Source: Candidatus Eisenbacteria bacterium
GTDB lineage: Bacteria; Orphanbacterota; Orphanbacteria; Orphanbacterales; Orphanbacteraceae
Assembly (NCBI GenBank): GCA_016930695.1
Contig: JAFGGD010000007.1
Location: 1 to 60,410, forward strand
DNA length: 60,410 nt
Direction of reading: 5' to 3'
A program made the translations under genes and the position numbers. Below, piece after piece: positions 41,598-47,850 of the stretch (position 1 is its first letter; each line of letters begins with the position of its first letter). Below the pieces are notes generated by a model. It was not told the DNA's origin. It searched no databases and worked only from the letters and a program-made list of their open reading frames with translations.

Positions 41598-43225
41598 GCC
41601 GCCGCGCCGCCCGAGCCGCCGCCGCCCTCGTCGCCCTGCTTCTCCTCGCGCGGCTCGCCACCCTCGGGCTCCCCCCGCTTTTCGACGCCACGGAGGGGCG
41701 CTACGCCGAAATCGGCCGCGAGATGCTCGGCTCCGGCGATTGGATCACGCCCACCCTGCACGGCGGGGAGCCTTTCTGGGCGAAGCCGCCCCTCCATTTC
41801 TGGATGACCGCCCTCTCGCTCCGCGCGTTCGGCGTGAACGAGTGGGCGGCGCGCTTCCCCGGTTTCCTTTCCGGTCTCGGGATTCTGGCGCTCACGATGA
41901 TCGCCGCGCGCCGGCTCTACGGCGGCCGGGCGGCGCTCCTCGCCGGCTCCATCCTCGGCTCGTCGGGACTCTTCGCGCTCCTCGTCGGCACGGTGATCCT
42001 CGACGTGACCTTCACCTGCACGGTGACCGGCGCGCTCGTCTGCTATCTCCTGTTCCGCAAGGATCCCTCCCGACGTTGGCCGGGGCTCCTCCTCTTTCTC
42101 TTTCTCGGTCTCGGTCTTCTCGCCAAGGGGCCGATCGCGCTCGTCCTCGCCGGACTCCCCGTCTTTTTCGACGTGATCCGCGCGCGGAAACTCGGCGCGG
42201 TCCGACGTCTTCCCTGGGTGGCGGGGATCGGCCTCCTGCTCCTCGTCGCCGTCCCCTGGTACGTCCTCGCGGAGAGGAAAACGCCCGGGTTTTGGAATTA
42301 TTTCTTTCTGCACGAACATTTTCTCCGATACGTGCGCGCCGAGTACGGCGACCGCTACGGCCACGGCCACGTCTCCCCCTACGGCCTGATCTGGGCGCTC
42401 GGCCTGCTCGGCTTTCTCCCCTGGACGCCCGCCGCGGTCGGCGCGGCGATCCGGCGTTTCCGCCCCCACGCGACGACGGGCGCCGGCGACCCGTCGGAGG
42501 AAGAGGGCACCGCGTTTCTCTGGCTGTGGGCGCTCTCGCCGCTCCTCTTCTTCACCTTCAGCCGTTCCCTCTCGCTTCCTTACGTCTTTCCCGCCTTTCC
42601 GCCGCTGGCGATTCTCCTCGGCCGGGAGGCGGCGGGAGAAGGAGGGATTCCGGCCCGTCGAGTCGGGCTCGCCGTTCCGCTGTTTCTCCTGGTCGCCGGG
42701 ACCGTCTACGGTTTGGCCCGATTCTCAGGCCGTCCGGCGGAGGGGGCGGCGCTCCTCCTCCCCCTGCTCCTTGCCGGAGGGGCGGCGCTCTTCGCGTTCC
42801 GGCGGGGAGGCTCGGCGGCGGCGATCCTCTCCGGTTCGCTCCTCTTCCCCCTTTTCCTGATCGCCCTCTCCGTCGCCGTTCCCGGCGCGGTGGAGGAGGG
42901 GAAGTCGACGCGGCACCTCGCCCGGGCGACGGCTCCCCTCGGGGGAGAGCCTCTCTTTTTCGACGGCGTCCCTCCCTCGGCGGAGTTCTATTTCAGGGGG
43001 CGGGCGGTGAATCTGCGCGGCGAGGTCGGGGAGATCCTCCGCCGCTTCGAGGACGGGGGGGGGGATTTGCTCCTTCTCCGGGAGAAGCAGGAGCGGTATC
43101 TTTCCTCCACGATGATCGCCGCGCTGGAGCCTCTCCGTCGAACCGGGGATTACGTGATTTATCGGATCGTGGGGACGCCGGAGCGGGAGGCCGCGACGAC
43201 CGCGGCGGAGAGAAAGGAGAAATAG
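41594..43225 (+). CDS. ArnT/PMT-like membrane glycosyltransferase
   Basis: A 543-residue polytopic protein with about 10-12 hydrophobic helices. The first extracytoplasmic loop has F-D-A-T-E-G-R-Y-A-E-I-G-R and K-P-P-L-H-F-W-M-T, typical of GT83/ArnT-type enzymes that transfer sugars from undecaprenyl phosphate to lipids or proteins. A Gly/Ala-rich helix block follows and the last 100 residues form a soluble domain. Start TTG at 41594 within the recD2 stop. It stands next to a PAP2-type membrane phosphatase, so envelope lipid or glycan metabolism is likely, but the sugar is unknown. Confidence 0.85.
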   Translation: MSRRAARAAAALVALLLLARLATLGLPPLFDATEGRYAEIGREMLGSGDWITPTLHGGEPFWAKPPLHFWMTALSLRAFGVNEWAARFPGFLSGLGILALTMIAARRLYGGRAALLAGSILGSSGLFALLVGTVILDVTFTCTVTGALVCYLLFRKDPSRRWPGLLLFLFLGLGLLAKGPIALVLAGLPVFFDVIRARKLGAVRRLPWVAGIGLLLLVAVPWYVLAERKTPGFWNYFFLHEHFLRYVRAEYGDRYGHGHVSPYGLIWALGLLGFLPWTPAAVGAAIRRFRPHATTGAGDPSEEEGTAFLWLWALSPLLFFTFSRSLSLPYVFPAFPPLAILLGREAAGEGGIPARRVGLAVPLFLLVAGTVYGLARFSGRPAEGAALLLPLLLAGGAALFAFRRGGSAAAILSGSLLFPLFLIALSVAVPGAVEEGKSTRHLARATAPLGGEPLFFDGVPPSAEFYFRGRAVNLRGEVGEILRRFEDGGGDLLLLREKQERYLSSTMIAALEPLRRTGDYVIYRIVGTPEREAATTAAERKEK

Positions 43226-45997: not shown

Positions 45998-46774
45998 ATG
46001 CAAACGATCCTTCTCCCCTTTCTCTTTCTCGCCGGGCTCTCGGTGGGCAGCTTTCTGAACGTTTGCATTTATCGGCTCCCGCGGGGACGTTCGGTGGCGC
46101 GTCCCCCCTCGGCCTGTCCCGCCTGCGGCGCGCCGGTTCGCCGGCGCCACAACGTACCGGTGCTCGGATGGCTCGTTCTGCGCGGTCGCTGCCGGGATTG
46201 CGGCGCCCCCATCTCGGTCCGCTACCCTTTGATCGAACTGGCCGGGGGCTTCCTCTTCCTCTGGATCGCCCTCTCCTTCCCGCAGGACTGGACGCTCCTC
46301 TTTCCGCTCTATTACGGCTGCGTGTTGCTCGTGGTGGTCTTCACCGACCTGGACCTGCAGCTCATCCCGGACTCGCTCACCCTGCCGGCGATCCCGATCG
46401 GTTTTCTCTATCACGGCTGGATCGAGGGGGCATGGGTCGACGCGGCGCTCGGTTTTCTGGTCGGCGGCGGGAGTCTCTGGTTGATCGGGGAGGTCTACCT
46501 GCGCGCCCGCGGCCGCGAGGGGATGGGGGGAGGGGACGTGAAACTCGCCGCCATGATGGGCGCTTTCCTCGGCTGGCAATCGATCTTGCTGGTCCTCTTT
46601 CTCTCCTCGTTCGCCGGCGGCCTCTTCGGGATCGCGCTGATCGCCTTCGCGCGGAAGGGAGGAGGGGCGAAGATCCCCTTCGGCGTCTTCCTCGCGCCGG
46701 TCGGTTTCCTCGCCCTGCTCTACGGAAACGCCTGGATCGATTGGTACCTGCGATTCGCCGGTCTCAGCGGCTGA
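45998..46774 (+). CDS. pilD: Prepilin peptidase / N-methyltransferase
   Basis: A 258-residue polytopic aspartic protease that cleaves and methylates type IV pilin-like proteins. The N-terminal loop has paired C-P-A-C and C-R-D-C (zinc-binding), and the catalytic aspartates are in F-T-D-L-D-L-Q-L-I-P-D and G-G-G-D-V-K-L. About seven hydrophobic helices. No pilin or assembly ATPase is nearby, so its clients are encoded elsewhere. It converges with rlmE, with the two stops overlapping by 11 bp. Confidence 0.94.
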   Translation: MQTILLPFLFLAGLSVGSFLNVCIYRLPRGRSVARPPSACPACGAPVRRRHNVPVLGWLVLRGRCRDCGAPISVRYPLIELAGGFLFLWIALSFPQDWTLLFPLYYGCVLLVVVFTDLDLQLIPDSLTLPAIPIGFLYHGWIEGAWVDAALGFLVGGGSLWLIGEVYLRARGREGMGGGDVKLAAMMGAFLGWQSILLVLFLSSFAGGLFGIALIAFARKGGGAKIPFGVFLAPVGFLALLYGNAWIDWYLRFAGLSG

Positions 46775-47392
46775 CCGGATCCTTCGAACCGTCCACCCCT
46801 CCGCTCTCCTTGAGTCCGGTGCCGACGAGGAAGAGCTCCACGCTCCCTCCTCGGGATCCCTTCGGCTTTTCGACGGCGAGCCTCTCGAAGAGGGGGCGCG
46901 CCTCCTTTTTCAGGGCGGCCAGATCCTCCCCCTGGAAGACCTTGCAGACCCAGGCGCCGCCGGGGGCGACCACCGCGCGGGCGAGTTCGAGTGTGCGACG
47001 CGCCAGCTCGACGGAGCGCGCGCTGTCGGCGAAGACGACGCCGGTCGTATTGGGCGCCGCGTCGGAGAGGAGAATGTCGAAACGGGGGGCGAAGGAGAGA
47101 AGGTCGGCCGGCTCGAGGCGGAAGATGTCCGCGCGGAGCACCCGGACCGTGTCCGGGAGAGAGATCCGGATCTCGGAGAGGTCGACGCCGACCACGAGTC
47201 CTTGGGGGCCGACCCGTTCAGCGATGTACTGGAGCCACGAGCCGGGGGCGGAGCCCAGGTCGACCACGCGGGCTCCCCGGCGGATCAGGTGATGGCGGCG
47301 ATCGATTTCTCGGAGCTTATAGAGAGAGCGGGCGGCGTACCCCTCCGTCTTCGCCTGCTTAAAAAAAAATCGCGCGGACGAAAGCGGCTCAC
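46764..47392 (-). CDS. rlmE: 23S rRNA (uridine-2552-2'-O)-methyltransferase RlmE, split by a T9 run (frameshift)
   Basis: RlmE/FtsJ methylates U2552 of 23S rRNA late in 50S assembly. From the GTG at 47392 the frame reads M-S-R-F-R-P-R-D-F-F and then enters nine Ts (minus strand, 47369-47361); in-frame translation stops at 47287-47285. Only after a -1 shift (D-F-F-F-K-Q-A-K-T-E-G-Y) does the rest follow, with A-A-R-S-L-Y-K-L, V-V-D-L-G-S-A-P-G-S-W and the catalytic K-V-F-Q-G segment. The corrected protein is about 209 residues, the family size. GTGA overlaps the upstream EIIA stop and GGAGA lies 7 bp before it. Without the shift only a part beginning at about 47267 remains. Confidence 0.85.
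47361..47369 (-). other. T9 homopolymer requiring -1 shift in rlmE
   Basis: On the minus strand the run reads GA-TTTTTTTTT-AAG. In frame it offers the slippery heptamer T-TTT-TTA followed by AGC. Re-reading one T restores the RlmE frame exactly. Ten Ts (or seven) would be needed for an unbroken gene. It may be a programmed ribosomal or transcriptional slip site, a true mutation, or an assembly error. Confidence 0.8.
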
Positions 47393-47850
47393 TCGGCGGT
47401 CTCCGTGAGGATGCGTTCCACCTCGGCGGTATCCTTCGCCTCGAGTAGGGCGTGCTGAATCTCCTCTCTCTTGAGGAGACGGGCCATGGTGGCCAGCGCC
47501 TGGACGTGGGTGGTGGTGGCGTTTCGGGGGGAAACGAGAAGAAAGATGAAACGGCTCGGTTTTCCGTCCAATGCGCCGAAATCGATCCCCTCCCGCGCCA
47601 GCGCGAAGGCGGCGGCCAGCGTATCGGTCCCCTCGGTCCGGCAGTGCGGCACCGCCACCCCTTGCTCCAGCCCGGTCCCTTTCTCCTTCTCCCGATCGAT
47701 TACGTCGGCGAGCGCCTTTTTGGGGTTCTTCACCCGGTCGGCTTTGGAGAGAAGCCCCACCAGATCCCGCAGGAGATCGGTCTTCTTCCTCGACTTGGAG
47801 AGTATGAGAATCGACCTCCGGTCCAGGAGGTCACCCATTGAAAGCATCAT
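47389..47850 (-). CDS. PTS EIIA type-2 domain protein (second copy)
   Basis: A 153-residue EIIA-2 protein. The phosphohistidine is in A-V-P-H-C-R; the preceding G-T-G-L-E-Q-G and the D-F-G-A-L-D-G segment match the family. A cysteine replaces the usual residue just after the His. It is clearly diverged from the copy at 6105-6566. Two successive ATGs (47850, 47847) follow AAGGA; either could start. The stop overlaps the rlmE GTG, so EIIA and rlmE are coupled. No EI, HPr or sugar permease is in the window. Confidence 0.87.
   Translation of the reverse strand: MMLSMGDLLDRRSILILSKSRKKTDLLRDLVGLLSKADRVKNPKKALADVIDREKEKGTGLEQGVAVPHCRTEGTDTLAAAFALAREGIDFGALDGKPSRFIFLLVSPRNATTTHVQALATMARLLKREEIQHALLEAKDTAEVERILTETAE

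Follow-up and report, generated by a model that had tools for sequence, protein, structure and literature searches.

Full-length RF2 is made from prfB by a +1 ribosomal shift, which takes place at a stop codon and is stimulated by a Shine-Dalgarno sequence, and some bacterial -1 frameshift sites work without a downstream stem-loop or pseudoknot. Previous studies suggested that runs of nine A/T serve recoding, such as in Shigella flexneri mxiE, whose transcriptional slippage is described here after a citing paper (PMC1088944), and in Thermus thermophilus dnaX, where transcriptional slippage occurs at an A9 run (PMC1088944). At A/T runs single-base insertions dominate and rise exponentially with run length (PMC5574713). 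In insect endosymbionts, slippage rescues frameshifted genes (Wernegreen et al. and others, as cited in PMC3711429 and PMC5009743), and 12-50% of endosymbiont transcripts can be corrected in this way (PMC5009743). The kind of mechanism that we propose below is therefore already known from mxiE, dnaX, IS elements and endosymbiont genes (PMC1088944, PMC5009743, PMC3711429), and an earlier report of a recoded FtsJ/RlmE gene was not found in a literature search limited to open-licence papers.

We analysed a stretch of 60,410 nucleotides from Candidatus Eisenbacteria bacterium (contig JAFGGD010000007.1, the window) and found that rlmE, on the minus strand, is split by a T9 run into two overlapping frames with the body in the -1 frame. 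The GTG start at 47392 overlaps the TGA of the upstream ptsN-like (PTS IIA-like) gene (47389..47838, minus strand) as GTGA, and a GGAG ribosome-binding sequence lies 8 nt upstream of it (47401..47404), in line with the GTGA overlap and the good ribosome site that a preliminary description of this DNA had claimed; the GGAG-to-start spacing is the same in the relatives G003 and G004. The 0-frame ORF from this GTG (47285..47392, 35 aa) has eight RlmE codons (MSRFRPRD), the T run, an unrelated tail and a TGA, and begins GTG AGC CGC TTT CGT CCG CGC GAT TTT TTT TTA AGC. The run at 47369-47361 has exactly nine T and contains the 0-frame heptamer T-TTT-TTA, as described before. The earlier statements that nine Ts interrupt the frame and that the stop is at 47287-47285 also held, whereas the placement of the run after 10 codons did not, since it begins at the third base of codon 8 (GAT). 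Across the run the body frame reads GA TTT TTT TTT AAG CAG GCG AAG, that is FFFKQAKTEGYAARSLYKL, and is open to 46764, so that the FtsJ/RlmE body (46764..47369) extends from FFFKQAK to its stop and includes the K-D-K-E residues. The first ATG/GTG/TTG in this frame is the GTG at 47265..47267, in agreement with the preliminary description; it is located 17 codons past the presumed catalytic lysine, which lies between the T run and this start.

The shifted body matched Pfam FtsJ in a profile search (2.6e-45), and the shifted product matched TIGR00438 (2e-48), but with 164 bits against a curated cut-off of 300. The catalytic residues K, D, K and E line up with those of E. coli FtsJ in an alignment with 1EIZ. 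From the family match and these four residues, the body is predicted to belong to the FtsJ/RlmE family (23S rRNA U2552 2'-O-methyltransferase), and the split gene is the only rlmE in the genome.

The phylum sample consisted of seven genomes of one family, G000 (the window genome) to G006. rlmE follows ptsN in six of them, with synteny kept in all six, and no rlmE region was detected in G006. Each of the six rlmE genes begins with M-(S/N)-R-F, its start codon overlapping the stop codon of ptsN as (G/T)TGA, and the conservation of M-(S/N)-R-F..D in the relatives bears out the claim that an RlmE-type N-terminus begins at GTG 47392. G001, G002 and G005 have no T run, start 39 nt before a fixed codon and are read in a single frame (MSRFNKEDPWFRRAK...), whereas G000, G003 and G004 start 38 nt before the same codon, have GA followed by T9, are each one base short and have a broken gene. 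The run and the frame offset are thus conserved in 3/6 rlmE-bearing genomes, with the 0-frame heptamer being T-TTT-TTA in G000 and G004 and T-TTT-TTC in G003, and the -1-shifted products of the T9 genes are collinear with the unbroken products of G001, G002 and G005. The preliminary description had named such an alignment as a check and had taken unbroken relatives with no conserved homopolymer as the sign of a sequencing error or simple mutation; we found three run-free, unbroken relatives collinear with the shifted product, and two relatives of other genera (G003 and G004) that keep the T9, the one-base offset and the start architecture, which supports its main claim that the full-length enzyme needs a -1 shift at T9. 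The T9 rlmE genes have a mutual protein identity of 56-69% and differ at 47-60% of third positions, synonymous sites between the T9 genera being saturated and a formal dN/dS not computable. The T9 and its one-base offset are common to at least two, probably three genera, and the alignments indicate that the split is not a private mutation of G000. In the loci read from other phyla, rlmE has no T run longer than six at the equivalent place, and the run of six is in frame. The equal 35-aa stubs of all three T9 genomes were set aside as evidence, being probably a by-product of the L-I dipeptide of the body (CTGATC).

Only six T9/A9 runs were present in the 3.78 Mb of G000 and one in the whole G003 genome (about 3.5 Mb), the latter being the homologous rlmE site. 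Outside the run, the Phe TTT codons of G000 rlmE were kept as TTT in 1/7 cases in G003 and 0/5 in G004, unlike the three TTT codons of the run, which were all kept. Because such runs are rare in both genomes, and because TTT is seldom kept elsewhere yet the run is kept, these counts indicate that the T9 at rlmE is more than chance.

A second gene with T9 at a homologous place in three genera was found in the phylum, the product of which is a membrane protein with weak similarity to PMT_2 glycosyltransferases. In tblastn comparisons with the intact protein, a T9 with a -1 frame break is located at the homologous place in G001 (L090, G001:C4:67265-67273) and G004 (L091, G004:C34:85340-85348), the T9 of G006 is in frame (L092, G006:C19:17112-17120), and the match is unbroken at the T9-equivalent place in G003, G000, G002 and G005. 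Among the judgeable coding T9 runs, all those out of frame were -1 and none was +1. A further T9/-1 candidate in G001 (L071) was rejected on reading, since its A strand is more probably the coding one.

We presume, with somewhat better than even confidence, that the T9 in rlmE is a maintained recoding site, most likely of transcriptional slippage (U9 to U10), a -1 ribosomal slip being possible. Initiation at GTG 47392 would lead to translation of the eight RlmE codons, after which the ribosome on a nine-U mRNA would stay in the 0 frame and stop at codon 36. A backward slip of RNA polymerase would add one U (U10) and place the N-terminus and the FtsJ body in one frame, giving an RlmE of normal length (MSRFRPRDFFFKQAK...); a -1 ribosomal slip on U-UUU-UUA would lead to an identical protein and may play a part. 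Overall, rlmE output would be limited to the slipping fraction. The split, the conserved site and offset, the conserved 0-frame N-terminus and the lack of other starts in G000 and G003 are observations; the occurrence of slippage, its rate and route, its limit on expression and any regulation are inferred. Both routes have their expected sequence here, namely a homopolymer of about nine or more A/T that connects two frames for transcriptional slippage, and a 0-frame X-XXY-YYZ heptamer (in G000, G003 and G004) for -1 frameshifting. Transcriptional slippage fits somewhat better, because no conserved downstream structure was found, nine T are kept where seven suffice, insertions of one base prevail at A/T runs, and such use of nine-base runs is known elsewhere. 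Programmed -1 ribosomal frameshifting on U-UUU-UUA (G000, G004) or U-UUU-UUC (G003) as the main route is in our view unlikely: the heptamer is in the correct frame in all three T9 genomes, but no upstream Shine-Dalgarno-like stimulator was seen, the run keeps nine T where seven would be enough, and downstream folding in the T9 genomes, modelled for stem-loops, was no better than shuffled (weak z-scores), with no stem-loop conserved. A search with Rfam models near the site had no hit above threshold.

All genomes compared are draft assemblies of metagenome type, and a consensus error, with a true run of T10 and an ordinary gene, has to be weighed. An in-frame gene would need exactly T10, and a frame break lies at a G10 run in G006, which means that homopolymer indels do occur in the phylum assemblies. 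However, the same base would have been lost in three genera and again in the second gene in two, longer runs (T11, G22 and G30) stand in these assemblies, the G-run controls of the window genome show gene boundaries only and no frame breaks, and such an error would imply that coding sequence contains T10 in frame more often than T9 in frame; we therefore consider it improbable. Phase variation, in which replication slippage would toggle T9 (off) and T10 (on) within the population, draws on the hypermutability of homopolymers, which are well known to phase-vary (PMC3711429), but all three assemblies have T9 and none T10 or T7, and rlmE is a housekeeping gene whose loss causes severe growth defects in E. 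coli (PMC6414753), which leaves this explanation with a low probability.

Of similarly low probability is a recently broken pseudogene, or a gene saved by another start. The frame is indeed broken as assembled, but the body is intact and without a stop, most differences between relatives fall at third positions, the 0-frame N-terminus has been conserved, and the same break is present across genera. As for another start, G000 and G003 have no ATG/GTG/TTG in the body frame before the catalytic lysine, and no near-cognate start codon is present nearby in that frame in G003 either. G004 (L004) alone has a body-frame ATG, 15 codons before the AKxxG motif, within ptsN and 1 nt after GGAG; this ATG is poorly placed and could give an unshifted enzyme, and a TTG in G004 holds the conserved start position with the 8-nt spacing.

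The proposed slippage in rlmE resembles that of mxiE in that two overlapping frames are connected by a U run and an additional mRNA nucleotide is required for the longer product, but mxiE encodes a virulence regulator on a plasmid and its slippage has been proven experimentally, whereas the rlmE site, eight codons after the start, is in a chromosomal rRNA methyltransferase gene and is known from sequence. As in Thermus dnaX, nine identical A/T bases lie in a housekeeping gene, and the organism is not an endosymbiont; slippage in dnaX leads to an additional shorter product, whereas the unslipped rlmE product is a short stub and the enzyme would depend on slippage. In the endosymbionts, likewise, conserved homopolymer frame breaks are tolerated since part of the transcripts is corrected, but such runs abound in those very small, AT-rich genomes, whereas they are few in the genomes of this phylum, which span 3.3-4.9 Mb and mostly have around 60-67% GC in the measured stretches. 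Like prfB, rlmE is related to translation, is interrupted early by a recoding site, here a proposed one, and would need a shift for its full product; the shift is +1 at a stop codon in prfB and -1 at a homopolymer here. If the reading is true, it would be unusual for a chromosomal housekeeping gene to depend on conserved slippage in a bacterium whose genome is GC-rich and of full size, and the enzyme concerned itself affects reading-frame fidelity. In automatic annotation such an rlmE would appear as a truncated or frameshifted gene, and a quality filter may treat it as an error of assembly. Given the second T9/-1 gene, the lineage looks promising for more sites and for the question of an unusually slippery RNA polymerase.

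In E. coli, +/-1 frameshifting is reduced in rlmE mutants (Widerak 2005, as cited in PMC6414753), and the ribosomal route could for this reason be self-reinforcing. RlmE would then enable its own synthesis, the rate of the ribosomal shift depending on Um2552, the mark that RlmE makes; this is speculation to which we give very little credence. If true, the split gene would be part of a positive feedback loop, reporting how far the ribosome is methylated and locking this state in.

In an rpoB tree G000 grouped with G003/G006 (100/100), and G004 was on the other side with G001 and G002/G005. As this tree does not unite the T9 carriers, the rlmE site would have arisen either twice or once long ago with later losses, and the second T9 gene likewise needs one of these histories. 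A recurrent T9 arrangement fits tolerance through slippage rescue, with or without regulatory use. Counting against recoding, there are three T9 rlmE cases only, and three relatives manage without T9.

Surveys of T8 runs (about 30 loci read) and G9 runs (about 23 loci read) served as partial controls. Most T8 runs were outside genes or in frame, and the frame differences at G runs in G000 and G001 were gene boundaries. A G10 run in a coding region of the window (43055-43064), a local control for assembly indels, has the frame kept on both sides. The G10 run of G006 (L161) is located in a repeat-containing gene at an apparent frame change, which an indel in the assembly, phase variation at the site or a broken gene could explain. 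Very long G runs were also observed, with 22 G at G000:C14:62067-62088 and 30 G at G002:C4:848133-848162.
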